Assembly: GCF_005405925.1 (NCBI RefSeq)
Contig: NZ_BJHV01000001.1
Span: 7,936,001 to 8,000,000 of the forward strand
Direction of reading: 5' to 3'
DNA: 64,000 bases
From: Streptomyces antimycoticus
GTDB lineage: Bacteria; Actinomycetota; Actinomycetes; Streptomycetales; Streptomycetaceae
How positions within the stretch are numbered: position 1 is the stretch's first letter; the number at the start of each line of letters is the position of its first letter. The position numbers and the translations under genes are program-made. Below the pieces are notes generated by a model. That model was not told the origin of the DNA. It ran no database searches and saw nothing but the letters and a program-made list of their open reading frames with translations. Positions 38,261-57,892 of this stretch are shown in pieces.

Positions 38261-39085
38261 ATGCCAACCACCACCAACACCGACAACATCACAACCACCC
38301 CCAACCAACCCGACCCCGCTCAGCTATCCGGCGCCACCGCCGCCGTATGGGCCGCACTGAACAACCAGCCCGGCACCACCAGCACCACCCTCGCCCAGGC
38401 CGCCAGTGCCGGCCAGTCCACCACGACCAAGGCCCTCCGCCACTTCGAGCAGACCGGCCTCGCCCACCGAGAGAGCGCCGCTCCCGATGGCAGCGGCCGC
38501 CCCGTCAATCACTGGTACCCCACACCCACACCCACACCCGACCCTGACACCAGCACCTCACCGGACACGACGGACGAGCCGCCGACCGCTGAGGACGACA
38601 GCCACGAGTCGCCCAACGAGCATCACGACCGCCCCGCGCTCACTGCAGAGTCCCCCGCATCCGAGGACGGCGCATCGGAACACGGCGATGCTGATGAAGA
38701 CGGGGAGCGGGGTTCTGTGACCGAACCCTCGCAGGGAGTGGAAACCGACGATGCGCCGGCGCCGGCGCCCGCGTCGGAGCCTCCGACAAGCGAGGCGGCC
38801 TCGGAGGACGCAAAATCGGAGGAGACCCAGCCGACCGTCAGCCAGAGCGGCTACCGGACCCGCCTCGCCCCTGGCGCCCTGCGTCAGATGGTCATCGGCC
38901 ACCTCACCGCTTACCCCGACGAGGCGTTCACGGCTACACGCATCAGCCGGATCATTGAGAAAAGTTCCGGCGCCATCGCCAACGCCCTGGTCACCCTGAC
39001 CAAGCAGGGCATCGCCGAACAGGTCACCGAACGCCCACGCACCTACCGCATCACCACGGCAGCAACCAGGAGCAGCGAGGCATAG
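38261..39085 (+). CDS. Protein with two winged-helix domains joined by an acidic linker
   Basis: The protein has 274 residues. Residues about 20-85 form a MarR-like winged helix (GATAAVWAALNNQPGTTSTT, STTTKALRHFEQTGLAHRES). Residues 90-195 are an acidic Glu/Asp/Ser/Pro linker. Residues 200-265 form a second winged helix (LRQMVIGHLTAYPDEAFTAT, GAIANALVTLTKQGIAEQV, RPRTYRIT). The second domain closely parallels the N-terminal domain of the MoxR ATPase encoded at 46803-48011. It is probably a DNA-binding regulator or chromatin-type protein of the element. Confidence 0.7.
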   Translation: MPTTTNTDNITTTPNQPDPAQLSGATAAVWAALNNQPGTTSTTLAQAASAGQSTTTKALRHFEQTGLAHRESAAPDGSGRPVNHWYPTPTPTPDPDTSTSPDTTDEPPTAEDDSHESPNEHHDRPALTAESPASEDGASEHGDADEDGERGSVTEPSQGVETDDAPAPAPASEPPTSEAASEDAKSEETQPTVSQSGYRTRLAPGALRQMVIGHLTAYPDEAFTATRISRIIEKSSGAIANALVTLTKQGIAEQVTERPRTYRITTAATRSSEA

Positions 39086-40200: not shown

Positions 40201-41544
40201 TCAGAACAGTGCCAGGCCCTCGCCGCTGGTGTCCGCGATGACTGGCCGGAACTGGGCAGGGAGTCCGTCCAAGCGGTCAGGACCGGCCGCGGCGGCCACA
40301 GCAGGAGCCGTCTCAGCCAACCAGAGACGAAACCGCTCGGCGGCTTCGCGGTAGGGGACTCGCGCCAGGACACGGTGCTCGCCGGAGGGGCAGAAATCGA
40401 CTGCGACAGTGAGCAGGCAGGAACGGGGCGCGTTCTGACTGCCCGTCCAGGACACGCGCAGGACACCGCAGGGCTCGCGCCCGCGGGGGGCGGGGTGGGT
40501 CGGGCGCAGCGATCGGCAGGCTATGTGGGCGGTCCATGCGGCGAGGTGCGGCAGGGGCAGGGTGGTGCGTGCGCGGCAGCCGGGGCAGCGGTGCCAGTGG
40601 CGAAGCCAGTGGTCGGTGTCGGTGTGGAAGAGGCGTGTGTAGCGGTTCGCCACGCGGATGTCGTTGCTGTACAGGTGGTCGGGGCGTTCCTGTGTGTTGC
40701 AGGACTGGCAGACGGGGGCGCGGACGTAGCCGTGTTCGTGGCAGTGGTCGAGCACGGTGGCGGCCGTGGTGCGGCAGACGGCGCACGCCCACCCGGCCAC
40801 CCTGCGGGAGGTACTGGGCTTCCTGCTGAGCACCGAGTACAGCTGGCCTTCCAGTTCTCCGTTGTACGGGCGCGGTGAGGCGGTGGGGCCCTCGGGGCTC
40901 GTCGTCTGCCGACCGTCGGCGACTGGGGCCTGCCGGGGGTGGGAGGGCGGCTCGGTGGCGGATGCGCTTGCCTGGCGGGTCCGCGCGGCTTGCACCCACC
41001 GTGTTTCGGTGTGCTCGGCCGCGTCGAGCAGCCTGACCACAGCGCGTGGCAGCCACCACGTGCGCTGCGTGGCGTCGCGGGTCCGCTCCACGAGTATCTG
41101 TCGCCAGTCGATCCCCGCCAGATGGTACGGCCGGCCGACCTCACGTCGTGCTGCCCGCTCGGGGCCGCCCAGCTCCCGTAGTTCCCCCGTGATGCGCTGG
41201 CGCCAACGCAGCTGCGTTTTCTCGTCGCACTCCTGTCTCGGCGCCCCACGAAACGGACCGATGCGGACCAGGTCCTGCCGATCCATCGCCACCGCGTTCA
41301 GTTCCGCGGCCGCCCGGCGCACATCAGCGTCCGGAACACTCCACTGACCGCCGCTCGCCCTCACCGTCGCCACCACATGGCCGCCGAGCAGGACGTACCC
41401 CACCCGGGCATGGGCAGGGGAGCAGGTGAAAGCCCCAGAAGCCGTCGGCACAGCACTGTCGGCGGTCAAATCGACCCACAGAGCGTCCGCGGCACCCAGG
41501 GTGATCAGGCCGTCCGTGCGACCGGGCATGACACGCTCCGACAT
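40201..41544 (-). CDS. Protein with C-terminal-half endonuclease VII (HNH-like, zinc) domain
   Basis: The 447-residue protein has an N-terminal domain of unknown family (FTCSPAHARVGYVLLGGHVV, DLVRIGPFRGAPRQECDEKT) and, at about residues 255-300, a recombination-endonuclease-VII-type motif: CAVCRTTAATVLDHCHEHGY, then VCQSCNTQERPDHL, with paired Cys and the DHCH-type catalytic/metal residues. Two more Cys pairs (HRCPGC; CRSLRP) follow. It is the last gene of the minus-strand operon headed by the DUF317 gene. A junction-cleaving or nicking nuclease is likely. A hairpin (41562-41585) lies 18 nt upstream of the ATG. Confidence 0.75.
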   Translation of the reverse strand: MSERVMPGRTDGLITLGAADALWVDLTADSAVPTASGAFTCSPAHARVGYVLLGGHVVATVRASGGQWSVPDADVRRAAAELNAVAMDRQDLVRIGPFRGAPRQECDEKTQLRWRQRITGELRELGGPERAARREVGRPYHLAGIDWRQILVERTRDATQRTWWLPRAVVRLLDAAEHTETRWVQAARTRQASASATEPPSHPRQAPVADGRQTTSPEGPTASPRPYNGELEGQLYSVLSRKPSTSRRVAGWACAVCRTTAATVLDHCHEHGYVRAPVCQSCNTQERPDHLYSNDIRVANRYTRLFHTDTDHWLRHWHRCPGCRARTTLPLPHLAAWTAHIACRSLRPTHPAPRGREPCGVLRVSWTGSQNAPRSCLLTVAVDFCPSGEHRVLARVPYREAAERFRLWLAETAPAVAAAAGPDRLDGLPAQFRPVIADTSGEGLALF

Positions 41545-41792: not shown

Positions 41793-42287
41793 TTACCGGC
41801 CACCGCATCCTGCGTGTACGCAGCCGCCGCAGGAGCCGCCGCTGTTGCACGCGCACGGGCAGGGGTTTACCCGTCTGCGGCTTGCGGTGGGGGTGTCGGT
41901 GCGCTGCTGGGGCAGGGAGACGGTGGGCGGTGTGGTGGGGCGGTCGGGGTTGGCGCGGTGGGCTGCGGTGTCCAGCAGGCGCAGCCGTGCCGGGTGGGGG
42001 CGTTGGTCGAGGCGGGTCAGGTAGTGCGGGAGGGTGGGGTCGGTCAGTCCGGTGAGTTGCCATCCGGCGGCGTTGATCAGGTGGCAGGCGGCCTCTGCTT
42101 CGAGCCATTCGGCGTGGTGGGGAGAGACGCGGGTGGCGTGCTTGTTGCAGACGTGTTCGGTCGCGGTGTTCAGCAGGCTCGAGAGCGCGGATCGTGCGCT
42201 GACGGCGTCGCGCATGAGGAGGCGTTGGCTTTGGGTGAGGATCTTGTGGACCAGGGCGCGGTGGTGGTGGAGGTCGGGCGTCGCCAT
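41793..42287 (-). CDS. Protein of 164 residues with Cys-rich C-terminus
   Basis: The start at ATG 42287 (MATPDLHHHRALVHKILTQS) is chosen because codon use and helices become regular there. The N-terminal two-thirds are helical (RDAVSARSALSSLLNTATEH, HHAEWLEAEAACHLINAAGW). The C-terminus is CPCACNSGGSCGGCVHAGCG, with seven Cys in twenty residues, a possible metal- or cluster-binding tail. I do not recognise a family. It lies in the operon between the 133-residue gene and the endonuclease gene. The 212-nt gap upstream (42288-42499) holds nothing I can support. Confidence 0.55.
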   Translation of the reverse strand: MATPDLHHHRALVHKILTQSQRLLMRDAVSARSALSSLLNTATEHVCNKHATRVSPHHAEWLEAEAACHLINAAGWQLTGLTDPTLPHYLTRLDQRPHPARLRLLDTAAHRANPDRPTTPPTVSLPQQRTDTPTASRRRVNPCPCACNSGGSCGGCVHAGCGGR

Positions 42288-42499
42288 GGAGGCGGTTCCT
42301 TTCACCTGGTATCTGGTGCTGTCCGGCGCGTGCGCGCGGCAGCACATGGGGATGGTGCGGGGATGCGAGCTGCGGATTGGCACAGATGGTCCCGGCAGTC
42401 GCGTCTGGGCGCGAGTGCTCGGCGGACTGTTCGTGGGCCGTGGCGGCTCGGGGTACAGCGGTGCTCTGCCGGAGGCGGCGAGTGCTGGGTAGCTGCCTG

Positions 42500-42901
42500 T
42501 TACGCGGCGAGGAGGGCGAGTTTGTAGGCCTCGATGACGAGGTTGAGCTGGTTCATCTGTTGTGCGTAGCGGGTGGCGTTCACGTCGATGGCGCGGCTGG
42601 TGTGTTGCAGGAAGCCGAGCGGGACGGCCTCGGTCTGGTTCGCGTGGGCTGGGACGTGGCGTAGGTGGTCGCAGGTGTTCCTGGCGTAGTAGCGCAGCTC
42701 GCCGTGGAGGCGGTCGGCTTCTTGTGCGGTGGTCCAGAGCAGTTCGGCCAGAGGCCCCAGCGCAGTGTCGGTGAGGCGGCGGTGGCGGCGCAGCGTTGCG
42801 TAGCCGTCGTTGCCCAAGGCGGTGCGCAGGGCGGTCTCGCCAGGACCGGTGTAGGTGGATGGGCTGGTGTGGGACCGTGGGCTGCTGAGGGGACTGTCCA
42901 T
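42500..42901 (-). CDS. Helical protein of 133 residues, unknown family
   Basis: The sequence after residue 25 is almost wholly helical (LRTALGNDGYATLRRHRRLT, LAELLWTTAQEADRLHGELR, RYAQQMNQLNLVIEAYKLAL), soluble, with no Cys motif or membrane segment. It is 24 nt downstream of the next upstream gene of the same operon. A structural or adaptor role is possible; no function can be read from the sequence. Confidence 0.6.
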   Translation of the reverse strand: MDSPLSSPRSHTSPSTYTGPGETALRTALGNDGYATLRRHRRLTDTALGPLAELLWTTAQEADRLHGELRYYARNTCDHLRHVPAHANQTEAVPLGFLQHTSRAIDVNATRYAQQMNQLNLVIEAYKLALLAA

Positions 42902-42925
42902 GGGGACGCCCTTTCGCTTGGGGGC

Positions 42926-43396
42926 TTACGCCGCGCCGTAGCGGCATCTCGGGGCGTGTGCTTCGTCGGTGTCGAAGGTGTCGGGGTAGGTGGCGGGGGT
43001 TGGGCCGTTGCCGAGTGGGGCTGGTCCGGTGGTCAGGTGGGTGCCGAGGTCGGCGAGGTGGCGGACGGCGGCCAGCGGTACGGGCGCGGCGCACACGGGA
43101 CAGGGGCCGAGGAGTTCGAAGGCCTCGTCCTCGTAGAGGGGGTAGCGGGCGAGGAAGGTGTATTGGGTACGGGTGGTCGGGCAGGTGGCGATGGCCAGGA
43201 GGGGTTCGCCGGGTGTGGTGCGGCGCTTGCTGTCCGGAGTGATGGTGATGTGCTGGAGGCTGAGGCCGAGGGTGCTGGCGAGGCGCACGGCGGTGCAGGC
43301 GTGGTCGGCACCGCGGTGGGGTCCGTATTCACTGGCGGCGGCGGTCTGCTGGATGAAGGCCGAGGCTGCCTGGGCTTGTTCGGCGATGGAGGTCAT
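42926..43396 (-). CDS. Protein of 156 residues with a CPxC zinc-binding-like motif
   Basis: The N-terminus is helical (SIAEQAQAASAFIQQTAAAS) and is followed by a beta-rich region (LGLSLQHITITPDSKRRTTP, LLAIATCPTTRTQYTFLARY) and then a single CPVCAAPVPLAAVRHLADLG motif. One CPxC pair plus upstream and downstream Cys could bind zinc. It lies 100 nt after the DUF317 gene in the same operon. The family is unknown to me; similar proteins accompany DUF317 genes on streptomycete plasmids. Confidence 0.6.
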   Translation of the reverse strand: MTSIAEQAQAASAFIQQTAAASEYGPHRGADHACTAVRLASTLGLSLQHITITPDSKRRTTPGEPLLAIATCPTTRTQYTFLARYPLYEDEAFELLGPCPVCAAPVPLAAVRHLADLGTHLTTGPAPLGNGPTPATYPDTFDTDEAHAPRCRYGAA

Positions 43397-43496: not shown

Positions 43497-44216
43497 TCAG
43501 GGGTACGGGGTGACCGTCAGTGCGCCAACCTCGGGGCCGGGGAGGGAGTGGCGCGGGACCGGTGCCGGGTCGGTGAGGGCGCGGCATAGGGCGGCCATCA
43601 GGTGGGTTGGGGTGGCCGGGGAGGCTACGGCGACCCACAGCACCATGGCGTCGGCGGCGCGGCGGGCGGCGCACAGCCAGTTCGCTCCGCTCTTCCCGGT
43701 GGTGGTGGGGACGGTGGCGGTGATGACGACGGCCTGCTCGTTGGGGGCGTACCAGGAGTCGTCTTGGCGGCCGATGTCGCGGATCCATCCGGCTGTGGCG
43801 AGTGCCTCGGTGGCCTTGTGGGGGGATTGGGACAACAGGAGGTAGCGCGGACCGTCTTCGGGGGTGGGCCCGGGGGTGTCGTCGGCCACGGCGGCGGCGA
43901 ATGCGGCGGTGATTTCGGGTGGGGTGTCGTGGGAGAACCACGCTGTCCAGGTCACACGTGCGGTGGGGCAGGGACTGGCCGTGAACTCCCAGGCCATCAA
44001 AGGCTTCCCGGGGTGCTCGGCCCGGCTGTGGAGATGGCGCGCGTGGCGCTGTCCGCTGGGGTCGCGGTAGTCGGTGTGGCACGGCTGGCGGGTGGCCTTC
44101 CATCCGGCTGCCAGGAGGACGTCGTCAGCTGTGGTCACGGCGGCGGGGTCGGGCCCTGCGAGGTAACGGGGCGAGATCAGATAGCGCGGTGTGCTGGGGC
44201 GATTCCGGTTCTGCAT
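43497..44216 (-). CDS. DUF317-domain protein, first firm gene of the operon under control element A
   Basis: The 239-residue protein starts at ATG 44216 after AGGAG. It has two DUF317-like repeats: YLAGPDPAAVTTADDVLLAA with ...PLMAWEFTASPCPTARVTWT and AWFSHDTPPEITAAFAAAVA, then YLLLSQSPHKATEALATAGW with LWVAVASPATPTHLMAALCR. DUF317 proteins are almost limited to streptomycetes and often lie on mobile DNA or near development genes; no activity is established. The operon continues through three small genes to the endonuclease. Confidence 0.75.
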   Translation of the reverse strand: MQNRNRPSTPRYLISPRYLAGPDPAAVTTADDVLLAAGWKATRQPCHTDYRDPSGQRHARHLHSRAEHPGKPLMAWEFTASPCPTARVTWTAWFSHDTPPEITAAFAAAVADDTPGPTPEDGPRYLLLSQSPHKATEALATAGWIRDIGRQDDSWYAPNEQAVVITATVPTTTGKSGANWLCAARRAADAMVLWVAVASPATPTHLMAALCRALTDPAPVPRHSLPGPEVGALTVTPYP

Positions 44217-44392
44217 GATGAACTCCTGGCGGGGTATCGGGTGGGGGATCTGTGCTGTCGGCGTCGTTTCGGGCTGGGAGGTATTCGGGGTCCCGCCGCT
44301 CCGGTCACCGGAATGGCACTGTTCTGTGCCGATCGCTGGTGGCGTCGACTTGTGAATGCGTCGCGGCATGTGGCGTGATGGTGATGTGACAT
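44177..44392 (-). CDS. Possible 71-residue leader ORF overlapping the DUF317 start
   Basis: AAGGAG nine bases before an ATG opens MSHHHHATCRDAFTSRRHQR and runs into the DUF317 gene in another frame, ending 40 nt past its ATG. The product is very basic and low in complexity, so it may be a translated leader rather than a protein with its own job, or simply chance. The remainder of the leader, 44393-44644, shows no gene. Confidence 0.25.
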   Translation of the reverse strand: MSHHHHATCRDAFTSRRHQRSAQNSAIPVTGAAGPRIPPSPKRRRQHRSPTRYPARSSSCRTGIAPAHRAI

Positions 44393-44644: not shown

Positions 44645-44745
44645 TTCCGGCTATTGCCGGGAATGCGACCAATGTAGCTCGATATTGGGGATCGGTCGAC
44701 ATTGATGGCGGCTGCGAATTGCTGGAATTATCGCGAATTCACGAC
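44645..44745 (-). promoter_or_regulatory. Control element A: bipartite 101-bp element upstream of the DUF317 operon
   Basis: Read on the minus strand: a conserved 29-bp upstream box (44717-44745) holding inverted half-sites GAATTC and AATTMTCGCGAATTC-type symmetry; then a non-conserved 34-bp spacer containing a -35-like TCGACC (44694-44699); a 26-bp conserved box with a -10-like TACATT (44671-44676, 17-bp spacing); and a 19-bp imperfect dyad TTCCGGCTATTGCCGGGAA (plus strand, 44645-44663) at the expected start of transcription. Every part recurs with identical spacing at 48102-48202. No other copy is seen in the window. Confidence 0.75.
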
Positions 44746-44924
44746 CGTATCGGAGGGGTATTCCATGGCTGGGTGACGCATAGTGTCGTCGGGTGTGCGG
44801 CGTCCGGCGGGTGCCGGGTTCGACCGGTCCGGCAACGGGCGCGAGGGTCCGGGTGGGGGCGGCACCCCGGCCCGGGTGGGCCGGGGGCGTGTGGGGTCCG
44901 GTGCGGGTGGTGCGGTGGGGGTGG

Positions 44925-46733
44925 CTATCGGGTGGTGGTGAGGGCGGTGGTCGCGGCTTTGGCGATCGCGGTGATGGCCTGGGCGGGGTGGGTCAGTTCC
45001 AGCGGCGTGGCGCCCGGCAGCGGGCACGGATCGGGGGCGAAGGCGAGCCATAGCACCGCGCATCCGGCGTCCTTCAGGGTGGTGATGCGTTGGGCGGCGC
45101 GGGCGGCTTCGTCGGGGTGGTAGTAGCCGTCGGAGGCGATGACCAGCAGGCGGCCCGTTCCGGGCTGGGTGAGGGCGAGCCCGGCGCACAGGGCGTCGAT
45201 GGCCTCGGCGAGGCGGTGCCCGAGCCCCCTGGCCTCGAAGCGGGTGACCTTGGCGGGGGCGCGGCCGGGGGCGGTGATGGCGGTCAGGGCCCGGTCGTAG
45301 GCCACGGTCGCGGTGCGTGAGTCGGGGTCGGTCAGTGCGGTGGCTTTGGTCAGGATCCAGGCGGCCGAGGCGATCGGGTCTGCTGCGGCGTTCATGGATC
45401 CGGACACGTCGACCGCGATCCCCACGCGCAGTGGCGGTGTGGGGTTGGGGCGGCGCAGGGTCCGGGTCCAGGGTGTTGCCGTGGGGGTGGCTCCGGCCGC
45501 CCTCTGGGCCTCCCGGGCGAGAGCCTGGCGCATGTTGAGGCGACCGGGCGGGGCGGCCGAGGCGGTGTGCGTGGTGGTGCGTTCGCGGTAGGCGGCGGCC
45601 CGCAGAGCCTTGGCGAGCTGTCCGGCGGCGGCCTTCTCACTTGCGGTCGGCAGCCGGGTGCCGGTCACCGGTGACGGGGTGTTGCCCTTACGGGGTTTGC
45701 CGGGTGTGAACGGTCGCGCTCCGGGCGCGAAGACCCGTTCCGCCGTTTTGGCCGCTTGCCGTTCGTGGGCGGCCTGCGCGGCTTTCGCCTCGGCCCGCGC
45801 GGTTCGGGCTGCGGCGACCCGCGCCTGTGCGGCGGCCTGCGCGGCTTCGTTCGCCTGCACCCGTACCGTCACTTTCCCAATGGCCTCGGCGAGTTCACTC
45901 AGTGGTCCGCCGCCGGTGGGTTCGGGTCCGGTGGCTGGTGTGCCCAGGGCTTGGCACCAGGCATGCGCGTGATCCAGCATGCCGGGCGCGTCGTCGTCGG
46001 CGGTGGCGTGGGCCGCCGTCCAGATCTGAGTGAGGGTGTCCAGCAGGTCGGGACCAAGGATGCTGGTGACGGCCTGTTCAAGGGGTTCGGTTTCGTCCGG
46101 GTCGAGGATTCCGGCATCCCTGCGGCCGAGGATCAGACCGGCGGCCCGGGCAGCCTGCCAGCGGTTGCTGGGAGTCTGCGCGGTGACCTCGGCGAGGATG
46201 AGGGCGTGGGTGGCCGATCGCAGGAACGGGCGGTCGGCGGGGCGGCGGGTGAGATGAGCGTGTTCGGCGCGGGACTCCTCCAATAGCTGTGCCGCCCTGT
46301 CCAGCGCGGTCCCGCGCAGGTTGGGCGGGGTGGTCCAGATACTGTGCGCGGCGTGCGCGGCCTCGTGGACCAGGACTCCCCAAGCGGCCGGGTAGCGTTC
46401 CTCATCACCGCGTCGCTCGGGATTGATGGTGGCCGGTGGCAGCGGGGCGAAAAGTGCGGCGTCGATCTCCAGCTCGGCCGTGGTGGGGTAGAAGGCGCCC
46501 GGGGCGCCGGAGCGGGTGCCGTGCTGGCAGGTGACGATCACGTCCTTCCGGTCCGCGAGTTCGGGGAGCCGTCCGGTCAGGGCTGCGGCGATCCGGATCC
46601 ATTGCCCGGCCTGCGCGGCCAGGCTGGGTTCGAACGGCGGGCCGCCGTCGTCCTCCCACCTCGCCTGGGCCCATTCGGCCTCAGACAGTGCGGGCGGCTG
46701 GTGCTGTACGTGGGCTGTGGTCTGCGCGGGCAT
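44925..46733 (-). CDS. Metallopeptidase-VWA fusion protein (DUF2201-like), partner of the MoxR ATPase
   Basis: The protein has 602 residues. The N-terminal domain carries a zinc-peptidase motif in WGVLVHEAAHAAHSIW (HExxH, about residue 123) and a downstream LLEESRAEH that can supply the third ligand. A coiled coil of Ala/Arg/Glu repeats (about 290-340) follows. The C-terminal VWA domain has MIDAS residues in VGIAVDVSGSMNAAAD and LLVIASDGYYHPDEAAR. Such fusions work with MoxR-type AAA ATPases, here the gene 69 nt upstream. A chaperone- or protease-like switch on a protein target is the likely role; the target is unknown. Confidence 0.8.
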   Translation of the reverse strand: MPAQTTAHVQHQPPALSEAEWAQARWEDDGGPPFEPSLAAQAGQWIRIAAALTGRLPELADRKDVIVTCQHGTRSGAPGAFYPTTAELEIDAALFAPLPPATINPERRGDEERYPAAWGVLVHEAAHAAHSIWTTPPNLRGTALDRAAQLLEESRAEHAHLTRRPADRPFLRSATHALILAEVTAQTPSNRWQAARAAGLILGRRDAGILDPDETEPLEQAVTSILGPDLLDTLTQIWTAAHATADDDAPGMLDHAHAWCQALGTPATGPEPTGGGPLSELAEAIGKVTVRVQANEAAQAAAQARVAAARTARAEAKAAQAAHERQAAKTAERVFAPGARPFTPGKPRKGNTPSPVTGTRLPTASEKAAAGQLAKALRAAAYRERTTTHTASAAPPGRLNMRQALAREAQRAAGATPTATPWTRTLRRPNPTPPLRVGIAVDVSGSMNAAADPIASAAWILTKATALTDPDSRTATVAYDRALTAITAPGRAPAKVTRFEARGLGHRLAEAIDALCAGLALTQPGTGRLLVIASDGYYHPDEAARAAQRITTLKDAGCAVLWLAFAPDPCPLPGATPLELTHPAQAITAIAKAATTALTTTR

Positions 46734-46802
46734 GGCGGATCGGTCCCTTTCTGCGGGCGTCGGGGGTGCGTGGGGTGGTGGCCGGTGGGCCGGAGATGCG
46801 GG

Positions 46803-48011
46803 TCAGAGTTGGCGGCCCAGGGACAGAGCGGTCACCGGCTTACCCAGGGCTTTGGTGACGATTTCGGCGACCGTGTCGCGGTCTTCGAGCGGGGCGATGC
46901 CGACCAGATTGGCGAACGCCGCCTCGGCACCCAGGACATCGGCGATCTTCTGAAACGCAATCAACTCGCGTAGCTGCGGCGCCCAGCCGACCTCACCGGC
47001 CTGCTGGCAGGTGGCGAGGTTCCTCGCGATCCGTACCGCCGTCCTGTTGATCTTCAAGGCGGTCGCCAGGTCGTAGTCCGACCCCACCTGGATCTGTACC
47101 GAGAACCGGCTGGCGAGGGCCTCGGTCAGCACCGCGCCATGAACCCCGGGGTTGTGGCCCGCGATGACGTAGAAGCCCTCGGCGGCGGTGATCGTCTCGC
47201 CCTTGTGCGCCTTGACCTGAATCTGGCGCCGCCCGTCCATCGCCGGATACAGCGCTGCCAGCACCTTCGGGGAGATCAGGGTCGCATCGTCCAGCAGCAG
47301 GGCCCGCCCCTCCTGCATGGCCGTCACCAACGGCCCGTAGATGAACTCATAACCACCGTGCTGATCCTGGGTGTACTCCCCGATCAGGTCACCGACCGTC
47401 GTGTCACCGTCCCCGGCAACCGTGATCAGGTCCGGAAAGGCAGCCTCGATCAGCGAGGTCTTGCCCGTCCCCGGCGGACCGTAGAGCAACACCGGCACAC
47501 CCGCCTCGCGCAGCCGCCGCAGCGCCTCGACATCGGGGAGGTTGGCCAGCGCCCGGGGGTGATACTGCTGCCCGTTCGGGCGGGTCACCGGCCCGGGCCG
47601 CCCACCCGGCGGGCCAACGGCGGGCGTCGGCCGAGCCGTGGATGGCGGGGCCGGTGGCGTACAGGCCGGGCCGGGTGGCCCGGGTGCCGTGGCGTGTGCG
47701 GCGGCTGCGGCGGTGGTCGCTGTTGCCCGGTACATACGGGGGTTGAAACCGACTCGCACCGCCTCCCCTCGGCGTACGAGGGTTTCACACGCGTTACCGA
47801 TCGCACCGCCGGAATGCCCCAGCATGTTGACCAGCTCCGTGACACTGAACTGCGCCCCCGGCGCGCCTCCGACCAGGGCCTTCGCGATACGGGCCCGCAA
47901 CTCACCCGGACGGGCCTTCCCATTCACGGGGGTTGTGGAGGCCGACGGGCCTGCCGGAGGGTTCGGTGTGGCCGAGTTGGGCGTCGGAGACAACTGAGCG
48001 GCACTGGTCAT
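46803..48011 (-). CDS. MoxR-like AAA ATPase with N-terminal winged helix
   Basis: The 402-residue protein starts at ATG 48011 after AAGGAAAG. Residues about 30-95 are a winged helix (ELRARIAKALVGGAPGAQFS, GGAIGNACETLVRRGEAVRV). After a Pro-rich linker comes the ATPase: Walker A VLLYGPPGTGKTSLIEAAF, GEYTQDQHGGYEFIYGPLVT, Walker B-like GRALLLDDATLISPKVLAAL (DDAT where most MoxR proteins have DEIN), sensor FYVIAGHNPGVHG, and arginine finger region LASRFSVQIQVGSDYDLA. It is the first gene under control element B and pairs with the VWA-metallopeptidase gene. Confidence 0.85.
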   Translation of the reverse strand: MTSAAQLSPTPNSATPNPPAGPSASTTPVNGKARPGELRARIAKALVGGAPGAQFSVTELVNMLGHSGGAIGNACETLVRRGEAVRVGFNPRMYRATATTAAAAAHATAPGPPGPACTPPAPPSTARPTPAVGPPGGRPGPVTRPNGQQYHPRALANLPDVEALRRLREAGVPVLLYGPPGTGKTSLIEAAFPDLITVAGDGDTTVGDLIGEYTQDQHGGYEFIYGPLVTAMQEGRALLLDDATLISPKVLAALYPAMDGRRQIQVKAHKGETITAAEGFYVIAGHNPGVHGAVLTEALASRFSVQIQVGSDYDLATALKINRTAVRIARNLATCQQAGEVGWAPQLRELIAFQKIADVLGAEAAFANLVGIAPLEDRDTVAEIVTKALGKPVTALSLGRQL

Positions 48012-48101
48012 CGCAGTCTTTCCTTTTCGCAGCCCCGGAGCCTTTCGGGCATACTCCACCTGCAATCCGTATTCAGGCGGACCCTGTTGGCCTGGATTTC
48101 T

Positions 48102-48202
48102 TTCCCGGAATTCCCGGGAACACGACCAATATAGCTCGACTCGCGGCTCGTTTCGACGAGAATTCGGGCTTGAAATTGCCGGAATTCTCGCGAATTCACG
48201 AC
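48102..48202 (-). promoter_or_regulatory. Control element B: second copy of the 101-bp bipartite element, upstream of the MoxR operon
   Basis: On the minus strand the upstream box (48174-48202) has perfect inverted half-sites GAATTC separated by four bases. The -35-like TCGAAA is at 48151-48156, the -10-like TATATT at 48128-48133 (17-bp spacing), and the dyad TTCCCGGAATTCCCGGGAA (plus strand) at 48102-48120. The 26-bp inner box differs from element A at three positions, the 29-bp box at two, and the 34-bp spacer is unrelated except for the TCGA at -35. The -10 lies 117 nt before the MoxR ATG. Confidence 0.78.
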
Positions 48203-48277
48203 GGGAATTCATGGCAATTCGCGGGGGCACGACGCTTTGCGTCGTGCACGGCGGCGTGGACGACGCTTCCCCAAGCC

Positions 48278-48368
48278 ACCCGGCGCGGCCACCCGGCGCG
48301 GCCACCCGGCGCGGCCACCCGGCGCGGCCACCCGGCGCGGCCACCCGGCGCGGCCACCCGGCGCGGCC
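48278..48368. repeat. Seven perfect tandem copies of a 13-bp unit
   Basis: Unit ACCCGGCGCGGCC is repeated seven times without change (91 bp). As 13 is not a multiple of three the array is open in all frames and gives long spurious readings on both strands. It separates the MoxR promoter from degenerate transposon sequence. Perfect identity suggests recent slippage. From 48369 to 48700 I see only fragments without a start. Confidence 0.92.
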
Positions 48369-48699
48369 ACCCTCGGCTACGCCTGGGTGGCCGCGCCTCA
48401 CCTTGAGGCGTCGGCCGACCGCAACGTGCCGGCCGGCGAGGAGCTTATGGGGTTAAGGAATGGAAGGTGGCTGAGGACGGGGCACGCCTTGCGGACAGGT
48501 GAGCGGGCATCCGTTGCAGGGTGAGTTGCGGTGGCCAGGGCCGCCGGGTTCAGGTAGATCGGGATGCGTTTCTGCACCGATATACAGTCGCCCTCGCCGG
48601 CGCCCGGCTCGTATACGGCCTGTCCTGCGGTGATGCGGGGCGCGGGGCGTCGCATCCAAAGGCGGGCGCGGAAACGGCCCCCGAAACGACTACGGAAGC

Positions 48700-49617: not shown

Positions 49618-52600
49618 TCACACGTCGCGGACTTCCCAGCCCCTCAACCCCTCGTAGGAGAAACCCACAACACAGGTGACGCGATGGTGCGCTGAACGGC
49701 GCTGGTGGCCGGGACGACCCGGTACGTAGAAGACCGGCAAACCATTGACATCAATCCAACCCTTTGTCGGCCCCACGTACTGGCCCACTCGGCCCTCGAC
49801 ACGGGACAGCAGAGTCGCATGCCTAAAGAAGTTACGGTTGCTATCCCATTCACCCAGGCGTGACTGATGGACAAGGCCGCCGATGCCCACGCCTGATCCG
49901 AGCCACTCGAAGCTCTTGGTTCGATCGGTACGGTACTGAGCGCGCCTCCTGCACTCCTCCATGTAGCGTTCGGCCTCACCGCGGGCAACGGGTGACGAGG
50001 AATCGAAGTACTTGAGGACGTGGAGCACGTATAGGTAGTAACTCGACTCAAGCGAGGGGTTATCCAGGTGCCACGTGGAGAACTGTCCGATGAGTTCGTC
50101 GACCGATGGAGGGTTGGATACATGGCGTGCGGCCCTGATCCAAAGCCGCATGGTCCGGTCGTCACCCGACTGCTCGCGGAGGTTCACCTGTAGCAACGTC
50201 TCAATAGTCTGCATGTCCTTGGGCTTAAGGCCATGCCACTGGCCCCCCGCCTTCTTTAGATAGACCCAGACCAGACTGCGGCGCACGGAGGGGCTGTCAA
50301 CATCGGCCCGTCCGAGCAGGCTCCGATAACGTTGCACAGCCTCCTCGTGATTGCCATACAGCTCATCCAGCTGTGCTCGGCACTTGACGGCGAATTTGCT
50401 CGGCTGTTCGGCCGTCCGCAATTGTGCCACCTGCGCCAGCAGGTCCTCGGATTTCTCCAGGGCTGTGTCGACGAGATACTCGCCGGTGTAGGTGAACACT
50501 GGTCGATTGTTGCCGTCGACCTGCTGGCGTGCGTAATCGGCGAGACGCAGCAGCATCTGCACCTCGCTGATGTAGCCGTGCTCGTTATCCCTGCGCAGCT
50601 CCCGCGAGGTGCTGAACGCTTCGCTCGCGACCTCGGCAGACCGAACCACTGGGCCAAGAGTGGATTTTCGGTCCATCAGGTCGTAGACCTCCTGGCGGTG
50701 GATCATGCCCTTCATGTGGTAGACGACGGAATCGCTGTTGGAGAGATCCAGTGCCCGGTCGATGCTGCTTTTCGCTCGTGCGAGATCATGCATGCGTACT
50801 GCCTGGTAGCGAGCCAGATGAGCGTGTAGGTGGGACTCCGACGGGAAGAGCAGCGTCAGTTGTTGCAACAGCCGAACCGCAGAATTAGGTAGGCTGATGT
50901 CCTCTATCAGCTGCGAGAACGACCGGGAGGCAGCCTGTTCCGTCCCCATGAGCTCCCTGCTGTCCCGGTAGATGAAGATACGCTCGATGAGGTCGAGTTC
51001 AGTGTCTCCCACCACGCCGACGCCACTGTGGCACAGTCGGGCAAAACTGATCGCCGCATCGGCGAGACCCGCCTTCCACTGGCTCGTGGTCTGCAACCCG
51101 GCGCTCAACAACTGGCTGAGCACCGCTTCCGCGAACAGCGCATGAGCCATGCGCCATACCCCGGGCTCCTCCTGCACTAGTAGATCCAGTACCTGATCTG
51201 GCAGCAGGGCGGCCAGTGAGACCGGTCGAGTGGCCGGGACTTGGAGCATTTCCGCGAAGAGCTGGGAGGGCATGCCCTTCTGCCCGTAGTGATGAGCCAG
51301 CGCGATGTGCTGCAACACCTCGCGATGAGCGGACTCCAGGCCATCGAGCCGAGTCATGACGTATCGATCCAGTCCGCGGAAATCCCGGCCGTACGCAGCG
51401 AGGCCGAAGTGGAAGGGGACCCTCTCTCGCTGGTTTCCACTGTGTCGTATCCTGCGCAGTTCGAGGGATCGGTCCGGGCGGGCCCGGGTGTATTCCTCCA
51501 GGAATCGATCGGCTTCCTGATCAAGCAAGAAGCTGGGCAGCTGCACAACACGTTGGTCATCGATCGCGGATATGGCGCGGCGCTGTACCTGGAGAACGAC
51601 CGCACTGACCTGACGATTCTGAAGCGAGTCATACAGGTCGCTCAGCAGACGCTCAGGAACCCGGCTGCTTTCGGCGAGTACGAGCACGCGTCGTTGGGTC
51701 ACATGTCCCAGTCGCATGATGCGCTCGGCATTGTCCTCCGCCCACTTGTTCCCTACGTGCTGCGCGGAGGGATTGCCGAGTAGGATGGCACAGGGATAGA
51801 GGTAGTGAAGGTCCCAAAGCACACGGCGAGCGACCGTCGTCCCTCCCGCGCCGGATGTGTGATACAGGTTCACCCGAACCGGTCGGCCCCCGCGGTCGAG
51901 TTCCCTGGCGACCTTGGCATGGAGGCTGGTGGTCTTACTTCTGTCGACGTCTGCTCGACGGCTGAGTGCATACCAGCTGATCTCACTGCCCTGGAGAAAG
52001 TCACGGCTGTCGTCGTCTGACTCCTCGCTCGGAGGGTCCAGGTAGAGGACCTCCAGTTCCTCTTCGATCCAGGGTGCATCGACAGCATCGAGCATCACGG
52101 GAGCCCCTGAAACGCTGGGCAGGGTGCGTTGCGGCCCGTCGGAGGCGCTCTTCTCGGGCTCCAGGCGAGCGAGGCCAGCGCAGAGCTGCTGCAGAGAAAT
52201 GGGAATGACATCGGCCTCGAACGGGCCAGCCACTTGCTCGTACGCGGAAGCCTCATCGGTGGCGATCACGACGTCCAGGGCTTCGCCGCTGCTCCCCGCC
52301 AAGTCGCCGAGCAGCGAGTGCAGGATCTGGATCTCCGAGGTGTCGTATCCGAGGATCAGACAGGTCACGGGTGCGGGGTGCAACGACGCGGCCAGCTGTG
52401 CGAGGTGGCGGCTCAGGTCTCGGCCGTATTGGGCCGACCATTTCCGAAAGGTGAGGGGTGTTGGAGGCTCACTTCCCGTGGTCAGACCCTTGGCAAAGAT
52501 CCATTGCGATGCATTGCGCCCGCCCAGAGCCATCGTCTCGTCCGAGGGCAGAACTCGATAGAGACTCCTGACGAGAGTCATCTCCCTTTCGAGTTCCCCT

Positions 52601-53319
52601 ATCAGGCCGCCCTGCTCACTCAGCGGGTCGAGGTCGACGACTGCGGACCACGGAGGTGCGGTCAGACCGCGCAACGTCGCAAGCCCGGATGCCTCAATGC
52701 GCGGGGCGACGAGAACGAAGCGACGGGCATCGCTGAAGCGCTGGACACGTTCGAGGAAGCGTTCCCAGGCATCTTCAAGGGGAGCGTTGTCACCGCGCAG
52801 AGGCTCAGGGCTGCCGCCATTCATCCACTGCACAATCCACCGAAGAGTGTCGCCGGTTGCCACGGCGTTGCTGCTGCCCCTGCGGTAGTACGTGACACCG
52901 TGCACGAGCGTTGCCGGGCCCAGGTGCTCATTGAGCTTGTTGCGCCACTCGCGGCGGACGTGGAAAGGGCCACGGCGGTCACGCGCGATGGTCAGAACCG
53001 CGTACAACGTCTCGTCGAGCTGAATGGGCTCCAGGCTGAAACGAGGCGTTGGCTCAATGGCGGAGGCCAGTAACTGCTGCCAGTCGGCGTCGTCAGGGAC
53101 GCTGCCCACACCGAGAAAGTCGAACTGACCGTTGCCCTGATCCTTGACGCCGAAGACGATGTGTGCGTCCTCTTCTCTTGGTGTGTTGGCCATGCTGATC
53201 ACATCAATGACGAGATCAGCTTTGCCCTTGGGAGTGGACGTGTCATGCAACTTGGTCTTGTAGTCGTGGCACTCGCCCTCGGCCCGTCGAAGGAGCACCT
53301 GCAGTTCTTCCGGAGTCAC
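49618..53319 (-). CDS. SAMD9-like STAND protein: AlbA/Schlafen, Rossmann-like, P-loop NTPase, helical repeats, OB-like C-terminus
   Basis: A single 1233-residue protein from GTG 53319. Residues 1-170: AlbA_2/Schlafen domain (EGECHDYKTKLHD, DVISMANTPREEDAHIVFGV, PGPFHVRREW-type text). About 190-400: Rossmann-like domain (FVLVAPRIEASGLATLRGL, CLILGYDTSEIQILHSLLGD). About 480-640: NTPase with the atypical Walker A YHTSGAGGTTVARRVLWDL, lacking the usual Lys, then RVLVLAESSRVPERL. About 700-1100: helical, TPR-like repeats. C-terminus: GRVGQYVGPTKGWIDVNG, VFYVPGR, VTCVVGFSYEGLRG, OB-fold-like. This order is that of animal SAMD9. In SAMD9 the AlbA part is a tRNA-cleaving effector; an abortive antiviral role here is inference. 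GC is visibly lower than in neighbours. Confidence 0.72.
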   Translation of the reverse strand: MTPEELQVLLRRAEGECHDYKTKLHDTSTPKGKADLVIDVISMANTPREEDAHIVFGVKDQGNGQFDFLGVGSVPDDADWQQLLASAIEPTPRFSLEPIQLDETLYAVLTIARDRRGPFHVRREWRNKLNEHLGPATLVHGVTYYRRGSSNAVATGDTLRWIVQWMNGGSPEPLRGDNAPLEDAWERFLERVQRFSDARRFVLVAPRIEASGLATLRGLTAPPWSAVVDLDPLSEQGGLIGELEREMTLVRSLYRVLPSDETMALGGRNASQWIFAKGLTTGSEPPTPLTFRKWSAQYGRDLSRHLAQLAASLHPAPVTCLILGYDTSEIQILHSLLGDLAGSSGEALDVVIATDEASAYEQVAGPFEADVIPISLQQLCAGLARLEPEKSASDGPQRTLPSVSGAPVMLDAVDAPWIEEELEVLYLDPPSEESDDDSRDFLQGSEISWYALSRRADVDRSKTTSLHAKVARELDRGGRPVRVNLYHTSGAGGTTVARRVLWDLHYLYPCAILLGNPSAQHVGNKWAEDNAERIMRLGHVTQRRVLVLAESSRVPERLLSDLYDSLQNRQVSAVVLQVQRRAISAIDDQRVVQLPSFLLDQEADRFLEEYTRARPDRSLELRRIRHSGNQRERVPFHFGLAAYGRDFRGLDRYVMTRLDGLESAHREVLQHIALAHHYGQKGMPSQLFAEMLQVPATRPVSLAALLPDQVLDLLVQEEPGVWRMAHALFAEAVLSQLLSAGLQTTSQWKAGLADAAISFARLCHSGVGVVGDTELDLIERIFIYRDSRELMGTEQAASRSFSQLIEDISLPNSAVRLLQQLTLLFPSESHLHAHLARYQAVRMHDLARAKSSIDRALDLSNSDSVVYHMKGMIHRQEVYDLMDRKSTLGPVVRSAEVASEAFSTSRELRRDNEHGYISEVQMLLRLADYARQQVDGNNRPVFTYTGEYLVDTALEKSEDLLAQVAQLRTAEQPSKFAVKCRAQLDELYGNHEEAVQRYRSLLGRADVDSPSVRRSLVWVYLKKAGGQWHGLKPKDMQTIETLLQVNLREQSGDDRTMRLWIRAARHVSNPPSVDELIGQFSTWHLDNPSLESSYYLYVLHVLKYFDSSSPVARGEAERYMEECRRRAQYRTDRTKSFEWLGSGVGIGGLVHQSRLGEWDSNRNFFRHATLLSRVEGRVGQYVGPTKGWIDVNGLPVFYVPGRPGHQRRSAHHRVTCVVGFSYEGLRGWEVRDV

Positions 53320-53351
53320 CTAACCCCCGCCTCTCGTGGCACCAGCTGGAG

Positions 53352-53363
53352 AATGTGCACATT
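53352..53363. promoter_or_regulatory. Perfect 12-bp palindrome before the SAMD9-like gene
   Basis: AATGTGCACATT is a perfect palindrome about 33 nt upstream of the GTG start on the minus strand. A smaller repeat ACTGT-N5-ACAGT lies at 53415-53429. Either may be an operator keeping a toxic gene low. Function is inference. Confidence 0.4.
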
Positions 53364-53559
53364 TCCCATAACCCCGCGCAAACACGGTTATTGGAGTCTA
53401 CTCGCAGTCTGCTGACTGTTTCTGACAGTGCGTTGACGAGGCTCGCGGATCGTATTATGAGTCGTTGCTGATCTTGACCCGGCCAGCTCAACTTGCTGCC
53501 TCGTCGAACCGACGGGACCGGTCGCTATCGCCGACCCACAGGCCAGGCGATTGCGAGAC

Positions 53560-53957
53560 GTGAAGGCCACCGCCTATGAGCCGCGGGCCTTCGACATCGC
53601 CGACCGGCTGCGCCGGATGGGCTGGCAGCAGACCGGACCCGAAGGCGAGGACGACTTCGCCGCGGGCCAGCCGCGCTACGTATTCCAGGTCTCCTTCGCC
53701 GGGCGGACGATCGAGGAGGTCCAGCGCGGCTTCAACCAGCAGTGGCGCCGCAACATCAAGAAAACGGAGAAGGGGGCGTCAAGGTCATCCAGGGCGGCCA
53801 CGAGGACCTGCCTGCCTTCTACCAGATCTAGGTTGAGACCGCCGAACGGGATCGGTTCATTCCACGCCCGCTGGCCTACTTCCAGCGGATGTGGACCACG
53901 CTCGAGACCGAGGACGACGACCGCATGCGCCTCTACCTCGCTCAGCACCAAGGCGAG
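53560..53957 (+). pseudogene. Left half of a femX-like gene (peptidoglycan bridge-forming acyltransferase), broken
   Basis: The reading YEPRAFDIADRLRRMGWQQT, YVFQVSFAGRTIEEVQRGFN, QQWRRNIKKTEK is the middle of a Fem-type (lipid II amino-acyl transferase) protein. The frame breaks in the G run 53772-53776, then continues VIQGGHEDLPAFYQI, a TAG where the family has Tyr, VETAERDRFIPRPLAYFQRM and MRLYLAQHQGE, where homology stops at 53957. About 150 N-terminal residues are missing. The matching right half lies at 59624-59948. This is a decayed gene, not functional. Confidence 0.7.
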
Positions 53958-54124
53958 TGTCCGCGTACTCCCGAACGCGCACCGGTTGGTACGGACGAAA
54001 GTGCACCGCCTGCCTACGTGAACCTCGCACGGGCCGCACCGTGTGGGACGGCCCTTCCCGAATCCCAACCCGCCGCCCCCTCGCAGGATGCACCTGTTCG
54101 TTCACCGCGAGCCCGCGGCAGAAG

Positions 54125-57100
54125 TCATGGGCCGATGTGCACGGGGGAGGCCCAGAGGGAGGGGCGGTCGGGGTGGCGTGCTCGGAGCTCAGACACCGCG
54201 TGGTGTAGTGCGTGGGCGACGCCCGTGCTCTGGTAGGCGGTCAGGTGCTCGTAGAAGGATTCCGCCAAGCGGACGCTGGCATGGTCGGCCACGGGCCAGA
54301 GACTTCCCACCAGGTCACTGAAAGCCAGCCAGTTGGAAGGCGGAAAGCAGGTTCAGCGACTCGTCGGGGACGTCGATGCGGCTGCGGGCGGTCCCGCAGG
54401 CGGACAGAAAGGCCAGACCCCGCTGTCCGGCGCGGGCGGTCGCGATATTCCCGAAGTGCAGCCTGCCGTCGTGCAGGACGAGGTGGCCTTCGTAGTGGCG
54501 ATCGGCGTCGGACCCGGCATGGCTGGCGATGTGGACGATGTCGTGGTGCTGGAGCTCCGCCATCAGACGCTCGCGCGTGGCCGCCTGTCCACGCAGGAGG
54601 CGGGCTCCTGGCAGCATGCCGATGAGTGCGGCGGCTTCCTCGTCGGCCCCAGGGAGATCGGGAACTCCGGGAGCGTGCGGTACGGCGACGACCAGCGGTC
54701 GGCTCCCGGCGCTCATCCGCCACGGCCGCGCTTGGCCGAGTGCGCGCACCGTGCCGGTGTAGGAGGAGGTCACCAGGTCGAAGGCGGAGCCTTCTGCGGG
54801 GCGCTCTGCCATGTGCAGGGGAAAGTAGGAGAGGAAGCCGGTGGGACACCACCACAGCCGTGGCCTGCCGCTCGGGTCGTCCGTGCCGCTGCGAGGAAGG
54901 TCCCGTACGACGTCGAGCACCGGGCCGACGACGGCGTCCCAGAGCAGTGCCAGGCCGGACCGCACATCGTCCTCGGCGAGCAGCCGCTCGCGTACGGAGC
55001 GGTCGGCGTCCAGCGCGAGTTCAGATCCAGCGATGATGGTGGTGTTGAGCGCCCGAGGGTGTCCTTGCTGAGCCGGGGCAGGGGGAGCGAGCGTACCCCG
55101 TCCTCCGTCACAATCAGTGCGTGGGATCCGTCGCCGTCCTTGCTGGCGATGGTCACCACCACCGGACCCGCATGGCACGCGGCGACGAGCTCCGCGAGCC
55201 GTGGCGGATGAAGGAACTCCTCGAGCCCTGGTACCCGCCGGATCTCGGCTGTCAGCCGCTGTCGCTGCTCGGTCAGTTGCTGCCGACGGTCGGCGTCCGG
55301 TGCCACCCGCCATTCGCCCGGGATGGTCTCCAGCGCGGCCGCTAGGTCGGGGGACCGGGCACGCAGCCGTTCTAGGTCCGCCGAGATGGCCGCTGACTCC
55401 CCGTGGATCAGCCCGCGTCCCTGTTCCAGGAGTTCCAGTGCCCCTTCCGGGTCGCCGATGGATATCAGGCACGCAGCGGCCACCGCCGGGAGTGGCGCGA
55501 ACTCTGCGAGAGTGCGGGCCCGGTCCGGGTCCTGCCACACCTGCCCGACGAGCTCCGGGAGGAGACGGACAGCGAGGGTCAGGTCCTTCGCAGCGGCAGC
55601 AGGGGCGCCGAGGGCGAGAGCGAGCTTGCCCGCCGCCCACGCGCCTTCCAGACGGTGGCGCACGGAGGCGGCGGAGGAGTCAGCCACCTCGCGCAGCAGC
55701 CGTGCTGCTTCGCCCGCGTCCGCAGGATTGCCGAGATCCAGGTAGCGGTTGTTGAGTGTGACTCCGAGTATGAAGCGCCGCACTGCCTGGCGGTACGGGG
55801 TGTCTGCCGCGTCATCGGCCGTCCGCAGGAGGGTCACGGCCTCATCGAGAGCCGCGGGGTCCCCGGTGCGGGCGTACCGGTCGGACAGGGCGGTGGCCAG
55901 TGCCTCCAAGACAACGCCGGTCGGATGGCCGAAGGAACTGCCGTAGGCCTGTCGGGCCAGGAGCAGCGCCTCGTCGGTGTCGTGGGCTGCCGCCTCCCCG
56001 GGCTGGGAGAGCTGGGCCCGTAGCCTCAGCCAGCGGCTGAGGTTGGCCGTCAGCGCGATACGCAGGTCCAGCGCGGGTCCTGGGCCGGTCGGCGGGGCGA
56101 GTGCGGTGCGGCCGAGGCTGATCATCTCGTTCAGGGTTGCGGTGTCGATCAGCCCGCTGTGGTCCTCGGCCAGTCTTTCGAGGTGGAAGGCGAGGTTGTT
56201 GAGTGCCCGAGGGAGAGCCGGATGCCCAGGCGGAAGTGCCACGACCAGTGATCTGCTCAGGGCCACCGCTTCGCGCAGGGACCCGGTGTCGCCGGTCTCC
56301 TGATACCTGCGGTGCAGCAGGCCGGCGAGATTGGTCGCGTGGTCCGGCTGGTTCGGATGGTTGCGCGGCAGCATCTTCAGCGCCTTGCGGTTCAATCCGA
56401 TGAGTTCGGCGAGCGCGTCGGGGGTGTGCCGGGTCTCGTAGGCCACGAGCAGCACCTCGCACAGGCGTGTCAGGTAGGCAGCCTGCTCGGGCGTTTCGGA
56501 AGAGGACTTCTCGAACAGCCGCCGGGCGAAGCCGAGTGCGGCTGTCATGGTGTCCGGGACGGCGTGGTGCTCGTGGAGCAGAGTCAGGACGTGCGCCAGG
56601 TTGCTGGTGGAACGGGCGCGGTCTGCTTCGGCCTCGGCCATGACCATGCCCAGTTGCAGCACGGCGGCAGCGGCGAGCAGGGCCGTCCGGTCGTGCGGTC
56701 CGGCTTCCTGAAGGAGGTGACCCACGAGGTCGCCCCAGCCTCGGACCTGGGGCGCACCTGGCCGTGGAGGTGCCGGAAGGACACGACGCACGGCTTCCGG
56801 TGCGGACTCCGGTTCGGCGTCCCGCAGCGGGCCGAGCAGCGTGAGCGAGAGCGTCAGGTCCCGTTCGTGCCGGGGGTTGCGCTGAGAGTCCGCTCCGCCG
56901 CGCAGCCAGAACACCCAGCCGGCTAGTTGGAGGAGACGTAGATGCGGCTCCACGTCGAGCCGCATGTCCTGGAGCACGGCGCGTACGGCGGATTCCAGGG
57001 ATTCGGCCGTGTCCTGCTCCGCCTCGGGCTCCAACAGGACACCGATGTCCTGGCGGGCGGAGTACGCCGCGAGCCGTCGCGGCAGCGGATGCGTCGCAGG

Positions 57101-57127
57101 GCCTTCCGGACTCAGGCCCTCCGGCAC
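54125..57127 (-). CDS. CHAT-domain caspase-like peptidase with N-terminal TPR-like repeats, frame broken twice
   Basis: The start is GTG 57127 after GAGAGGAG. About 1000 residues: the first 600 are TPR-like helical repeats (HATNLAGLLHRRYQETGDTG, LNNLAFHLERLAEDHSGLID). The C-terminal CHAT domain has the catalytic His in HHDIVHIASHAGSD and Cys in GLAFLSACGTARS, then LNLLSAFQLAGF and GSLWPVADHASVRLAESFYE. The frame shifts at CCC 55052-55054 (one G/C missing; restored DTLGALNTTIIAGSEL) and at AAA 54321-54323 (one base extra; restored GFSDLVGSLWPV). It overlaps the upstream partner by 16 nt. CHAT proteins cleave partner proteins in conflict systems. Confidence 0.8.
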
Positions 57128-57868: not shown

Positions 57869-57892
57869 CCTCGTTTTGCAGGGGACTTTGGG

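Follow-up and report, generated by a model that had tools for sequence, protein, structure and literature searches.

Two stretches of about 100 bp in a 64,000-nucleotide segment of Streptomyces antimycoticus DNA (contig NZ_BJHV01000001.1, positions 7,936,001 to 8,000,000; hereafter the window, numbered from its first letter) were found to share one layout. The first, copy A (44645-44745), precedes a unit of minus-strand genes that includes a DUF317 gene; the second, copy B (48102-48202), precedes the minus-strand genes of a MoxR-class AAA+ ATPase and its von Willebrand factor A (VWA) partner. Judged from its sequence and that of its relatives, the duplicated stretch is a genuine shared control region and not a chance resemblance, being promoter-like, conserved, specific to the element that carries it and present there in two copies. 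We consider it likely that the two stretches are copies of one large promoter or control region, reaching from about -125 to +20, of a gene cluster that lies beside a type IV secretion module; that this promoter depends on a protein bound at a box termed D2; and that copy B is ancestral, copy A being its duplicate in the clade of the window.

Copies A and B are direct repeats 3.46 kb apart that aligned end to end without a gap, as an earlier note on this DNA had claimed, with 71 of 101 positions identical; both were also orientated, as that note had it, toward the minus-strand genes downstream. Its subdivision of the stretch stood only in part. The part lengths it gave (19, 26, 34 and 29 bp) add up to 108 rather than 101 bp, the second box really measuring 19 bp and not 26, although the three differences counted in that box were right. 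Two differences were confirmed in the 29-bp box, the 19-bp dyad described as nearly identical differed at four of its 19 positions, and the 34-bp spacer, described as unrelated with TCGA alone kept, matched in 13 of 34 columns, the longest run being TCGAC. The common layout extended about 45 bp farther upstream than the 101 bp, with one gap. Upon BLAST of the 11.17-Mb genome of origin (E <= 0.001), copy A retrieved two places only, copies A and B (copy B: E 5.6e-10, 75%), and no third copy was found in that genome either by this search or by a search for the D2 box with up to three mismatches. The upstream box (up to three mismatches) occurred twice in the window against 0 times in 100 shuffles, and the -10 box twice against a shuffle mean of 0.11. 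Single dyads with two mismatches were no rarer than chance (0.51 expected for the D2 palindrome, 0.46 for D3 and 1.09 for D1). The rarity thus resides in the combination of parts, not in the single dyads.

To map these parts, we used 18 copies from 14 loci, the window included, of which 14 stand before MoxR and 4 before DUF317. Positions are given on the minus strand relative to a predicted +1 set 7 bp after the -10; the starts, 7 bp past the TAYATT hexamer, would accordingly fall at about 48121 in copy B and 44664 in copy A. The outermost part, D1 (ACGACRC-n3-RCRTCG, about -125 to -109), had been overlooked in the earlier note and was present in 14/14 MoxR copies, reading ACGACGC-AAA-GCGTCGT in copy B (48229-48245). 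The D2 box, AT-rich within a window of 70% GC, opens with the palindrome TCGYGAATTCGCGA at -80 to -67 (with T in 17 of the 18 copies and C in copy A of S. samsunensis), which is followed in all 18 by the tail NAANTCC. The box of copy B (48174-48201) consists of the palindrome TCGTGAATTCGCGA (48188-48201) and the tail GAATTCCGGCAATT, and that of copy A (44717-44744) reads TCGTGAATTCGCGATAATTCCAGCAATT. The palindrome is separated from CGAGCTA(C/T)ATT, which holds a -10, by 49 bp in 13 of the copies and by 48 bp in the other 5; the first 11-14 of these base pairs form the conserved tail, and the remainder drifts except for a short AG-n-C. The -10 region reads TCGAGCTATATT in copy B (48128-48139, hexamer 48128-48133) and TCGAGCTACATT in copy A (44671-44682, hexamer 44671-44676). 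Just past the predicted start, at about +2 to +20, D3 is a perfect dyad in copy B (TTCCCGG-GAATT-CCGGGAA, 48102-48120) and an imperfect one in copy A (TTCCCGGCAATAGCCGGAA, 44645-44663). Its 5' arm, TTCCCGG at about +2, was found in 16/18 copies, among them all 14 MoxR copies, and was replaced by TTCCCAG in copy A of S. samsunensis and of the genome G189. Farther upstream in copy B, about 30 bp before D1, lies a perfect tandem repeat of the 13-bp unit GCCACCCGGCGCG (48275-48372; 7.5 copies, 100% identical).

Relatives were sought with gapped patterns that required AATTCGCGA (in the strict form, GTGAATTCGCGANAA) together with CGAGCTA-ATT, and that left free the TCC tail, D1, TTCCCGG and the exact spacing. 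Of 392 genomes in the genus Streptomyces, 8 contained matches to the strict pattern, 12 in total, and the reversed control gave none. All 12 lay upstream of MoxR (9) or DUF317 (3); the random scatter of boxes that the earlier note had named as refuting its reading was thus not seen. A looser pattern that allowed a spacing of 44-54 bp, run against 391 genomes of the order, matched 8 times in 5 of them and never in the control; all 8 belong to the same promoter family and have a spacing of 48 or 49 bp. We infer that the two scans share 134 genomes and hence cover about 649 distinct ones, 11 with a match, under patterns that differ between the scans. In S. samsunensis, a pattern scan of the genome contigs placed both copies 3458 bp apart in surroundings 93-95% identical in DNA. 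A single plasmid record matched copy B, p1 of Streptomyces sp. BHT-5-2, which was reached via the MoxR protein and not via the pattern; its copy stands upstream of a MoxR gene whose product is 80% identical, in a region 76% identical in DNA. Two genomes contributed two loci each, G335 (L057 on C1, L058 on C2) and G567 (L092, which stops inside MoxR, and L093, which starts about 190 bp before the box). A short -10 pattern returned 31 stretches; L008, L014, L015 and L038 were examined, L014 was counted, and no D2 box was seen by eye in L008 or L015. L038, from Streptomyces sp. S465, holds a decayed copy A that retains the -10 and D3 side and has its upstream half replaced, and was excluded from the count. 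A phage origin was rejected: copy B had no match in the phage collection, the box was absent from viral contigs, and none of the 8 viral stretches with the MoxR peptide pattern encodes a relative.

Among the 14 loci, copy A was present only in the window, S. samsunensis, G079 and G189, which together we call the window's clade, and no second copy was found at any of the 10 loci outside it. After the -10, copy A carries GGTCG, a pentamer otherwise present only in the clade's own B copies; this points to a duplication of copy B within the clade, and the DUF317 copy accordingly looks like a clade-specific duplicate. A DUF317 homolog followed the VWA gene in 4 of the 10 outside loci, at a distance of about 95-180 bp in L058, L059 and L095 and of about 700 bp in L056. 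The proposal of the earlier note that the two operons form one regulated system therefore stands for the window's clade, where both units share the region and where comparison of the sequences leaves their link well supported, and was not seen beyond it, 0 of the 10 outside loci showing a second copy.

The duplication offers a natural experiment, in that one promoter seems to have been doubled, with later drift falling mostly outside the positions that matter for its working. Alignment columns at which copies A and B agree coincided with those conserved in at least 9 of the 10 orthologous copies outside the clade (54/16 versus 11/21; odds ratio 6.4, Fisher p 5e-5), as they did when the letters fixed by the search patterns were removed (31/16 versus 10/21; odds ratio 4.1, p 0.005), p-values that are indicative only because the loci share descent and related sequences were counted as independent. 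A duplication devoid of function would fit the appearance of copy A as a copy B duplicate inside one clade; it is, in our opinion, highly improbable, since conservation after duplication tends to fall on the columns that orthologs also conserve and since parts unused in the search were kept as well. Besides the shared descent, several points weigh against the reading as a conserved, element-specific promoter. Most copies were found by patterns containing the letters of AATTCGCGA and CGAGCTA-ATT, so that the constancy of these letters is partly selection, and divergent promoters of the family would escape the same patterns. Partial matches of 25-35 bp (E 8e-4 to 0.009) occurred in five genomes besides that of the window. 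The second arm of D3, CCGGGAA, stood at dyad spacing in 6/18 copies, the full dyad being perfect in those 6 of 18, and D1 is degenerate in copy A, where its counterpart (CGACGACACTATGCGTCAC, 44773-44791) fails the D1 pattern of the MoxR copies.

A -10 hexamer of the form TANNNT was present throughout, as TAYATT in 18/18 copies, although the search patterns demanded the TAYATT letters. Scanning of 12 kb for sigma-70-type promoters flagged a single site, TCGAAA-17-TATATT in copy B (48156-48128; 0.5 expected by chance), and left copy A unflagged. No conserved -35 hexamer was found 16-18 bp upstream of the -10: at 17 bp, the 18 copies read TCGA (8), TTCA (6), TTTA (2), CCGA (1) and TTGG (1). The TCGA that the earlier note had put forward as a -35 conserved in the spacer was thus confined to 8/18 copies, namely to 8/8 copies of the window's clade and 0/10 others, and is rejected as a conserved -35. 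Promoters of the SARP type carry direct repeats of TCGAG-type heptamers over the -35; such repeats were absent here, TCGAG occurring once, at the -10, in 15/18 copies and not at all in the other 3. Since the -35 is weak and unconserved, the promoter would need a D2-bound protein to recruit RNA polymerase. We propose that a protein on D2 (-80 to about -56), held at a fixed distance from the -10, would recruit the polymerase, with D3 past the start and D1 near -117 as further binding sites that may block initiation. Copy B, as the ancestral promoter, would drive MoxR and VWA, and copy A, duplicated within the window's clade, would give DUF317 and the following genes a separate promoter. In its -10 hexamer, its weak -35 and its upstream box at fixed distance, the region resembles a familiar class, the sigma-70-type promoters that depend on an activator bound to an upstream operator; it differs in the privacy of the box, which belongs to a single gene cluster, and in the fusion of the favoured reader to an AAA+ ATPase.

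That the stretches instead serve DNA transfer, recombination or partition, or act as an RNA element, could be argued from the conjugation-type genes that adjoin them and from their arrangement as direct repeats 3.46 kb apart. We regard this as very unlikely, given that 18/18 copies precede MoxR or DUF317 and hold a -10-like core, and that the 10 loci outside the clade have a single copy. As for RNA, the 5' arm of D3 is fixed and the 3' arm varies with no compensation of the stem, by eye on the alignment, and D3 was rejected as an RNA hairpin on these grounds.

Searched with up to three mismatches in the 11 whole genomes that bear it, the D2 box gave 16 matches, all exact and all at MoxR or DUF317 promoters (reversed control, 2), and no D2 site with 1-3 mismatches was found in these genomes. 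This confinement, with no second kind of site, makes a host-wide regulon unlikely and suggests that the reader of D2 should be encoded by the element, which thus probably supplies its own regulator. A global regulator or nucleoid protein of the host might in principle recognize an AT-rich box with AATT steps about 10 bp apart in a window of 70% GC. We hold this to be unlikely on the grounds that the 23-bp box had no other site with up to three mismatches in the 11 genomes, a search that a looser host consensus would escape.

Among proteins of the element, the N-terminal winged helix of MoxR itself appears to be the most likely reader of D2, an assignment that we make tentatively. In a structure model, residues 35-100 of MoxR form a winged helix with the element order H-E-H-H-E-E, and the predicted local distance difference test score (pLDDT) lay at 91-94 per block over residues 41-100; only this part of the model was used, because the AAA+ part was poor (mean pLDDT 60.8). 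The recognition helix read GHSGGA(I/V)GNAC in 13/13 readable box-bearing loci. Of 20 genomes lacking a strict match, three hold a MoxR homolog (E <= 1e-30), each with GHSHGAVRNAA at this place, and no promoter parts were found within 1.2 kb upstream of these three. Counting against MoxR, the link between helix and box rests on few events, because the differences of the three box-less homologs are not limited to the helix (64-66% identity); L055, from genome G199, combines an intact box with a MoxR winged helix whose beginning has been lost; and the SGGA helix is frequent among 40 aligned MoxR homologs, upstream DNA being seen for a minority of them. Were MoxR nonetheless the reader, it would be the autoregulator of both units. 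A bolder reading, which we find possible but rather doubtful, is that, in a conjugative element, an AAA+ ATPase of the MoxR class serves in its own right as a sequence-specific transcription factor, whose fused winged helix reads a private operator before its own operon and before a second operon gained by promoter duplication; if so, the remodelling machine made of MoxR and the HEAAH-bearing VWA protein would couple its working state to its own supply.

The earlier note had named as first candidate the two-winged-helix protein encoded on the plus strand at 38261-39085, whose N-terminal domain is of the MarR_2 type and whose C-terminal domain is of the TrmB/IclR type. The latter domain is a winged helix akin to the one in MoxR (34% over 76 residues, 2e-8 in a two-sequence comparison), and a profile of the MoxR winged helix matched this domain at 3.2e-15 among the frames of the window. 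The same promoter could then be read at D2 (or D3) by this protein and not by MoxR: homologs other than the MoxR domain were found in 7 of the 8 box-bearing genomes examined, counting that of the window, and also in L093 and L095; one is present in G199, whose MoxR helix is damaged. No homolog was found, however, in G079, although both copies and a 99% identical MoxR are kept there; that of G093 is distant (35-36%) and lies on another contig; and those outside the window's clade are mostly 35-50% identical, against an invariant box. The candidacy of the 38261 protein is weakened by its absence from G079 and by the related winged helix in MoxR; it remains our second choice, with a somewhat low probability.

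A third candidate is the LysM-BTAD protein (59990-62710, minus strand), which would act as a membrane-tethered SARP-like activator. In 10 of the 12 loci that reach far enough, copy B or its counterpart has a homolog of this gene no more than about 1.1 kb upstream of the box, the distance being 11.8 kb in the window, and the stretch before the BTAD domain of the protein resembles by eye a SARP DNA-binding domain. The homolog is nevertheless absent from the 19 kb of L060, where the box is intact; no DNA-binding Pfam domain was matched at E up to 1; and the single TCGAG, at the -10 of 15/18 copies and never repeated, does not suit a SARP-like protein, so that we think this regulator improbable. 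We therefore favour, from the sequence evidence, a ranking with MoxR first, the 38261 protein second, and the LysM-BTAD protein and host proteins thereafter. The private box beside a winged-helix MoxR gene presents one short testable site with two candidate readers. The roughly 11 kb between the LysM-BTAD gene and copy B (49618-59413) hold a Schlafen/AlbA_2 protein with a weak nSTAND match, open reading frames without assignment, and a DDE transposase gene (57893-59413) with 21-bp inverted ends; this stretch looks inserted, because about 0.6 kb separates the LysM-BTAD gene from copy B in G079.

The MoxR gene (46803-48011, minus strand) encodes a MoxR/NorQ-like AAA+ ATPase of 402 residues with the winged helix at about residues 35-100 (AAA_5, 3.3e-18; MarR_2, 0.0054, below the cut-off). 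The closest solved structures were midasin, NorQ and CbbQ by sequence, and NorQ and CbbQ by fold, with low TM-scores. A possible leader frame of 14 residues (48008-48052) overlaps the MoxR start at ATGA; the frame ends earlier in G189. The VWA gene (44925-46733, minus strand) encodes a CoxE-like protein of 602 residues with HEAAH (from residue 123) and DVSGS, both of which were present in 16/16 loci examined, the 3 box-less ones included. The flanking genes encode VirB4-, VirD4/TraG- and PrgI-like proteins, a weak TrbL match and an NlpC/SLT protein, and because of these VirB4/VirD4/PrgI-type neighbours the cluster looks like part of a conjugative element. For the tRNA-Leu gene (22053-22138), a candidate attachment site, no repeat of the 3' end was found in the window and the next 20 kb; the far end of the element may lie elsewhere.

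Pairs of MoxR and VWA proteins are known to act on protein complexes as chaperones. The adjacent MoxR-class AAA+ and VWA genes recall NorQ/NorD and other such chaperone pairs (PMC9976466, PMC13036017), from which the present pair differs by the N-terminal winged helix of its ATPase, the HEAAH of its VWA protein, its conjugation-gene neighbours and its private promoter. MoxR and vWA genes also occur together in the vWA-MoxR ternary conflict systems of multicellular bacteria, actinobacteria included (PMC7159879). The MoxR and vWA components are alike, but the third component was not recognised here: none of VMAP, iSTAND, FtsH or a beta-propeller was detected among the scanned proteins, with libraries that may not hold all such models, and the weak nSTAND match at 49618-53319 lies inside the apparent insertion. 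VirB4, VirD4/TraG and PrgI-like genes are shared with the Streptomyces integrative conjugative elements of the type IV secretion type (PMC9513070), a paper whose main text does not mention MoxR and whose consulted passages contain no such promoter. Among the non-subscription papers searched on MoxR/VWA, DUF317 and Streptomyces elements, and in the excerpts consulted, neither such a promoter nor a regulator MoxR with a fused winged helix was found, nor any paper on DUF317 in Streptomyces, nor anything on the control of element-borne MoxR/VWA pairs.

Downstream of copy A, all on the minus strand, the first frame on the predicted transcript is a possible one of 71 residues (44177-44392) that overlaps the DUF317 start and ends earlier in S. 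samsunensis. The DUF317 (SPDY) gene follows (43497-44216), with a likely start at ATG 44216 within a longest open frame from 44519, and farther downstream lies a gene for an endonuclease VII-type protein (40201-41544; PF02945, 5.1e-08). Between these two, an open frame of 433 residues (41793-43094) has its counterparts in G079, G189 and S. samsunensis broken up among several frames, and more distant loci match mainly its C-terminal part, which renders this gene call doubtful.

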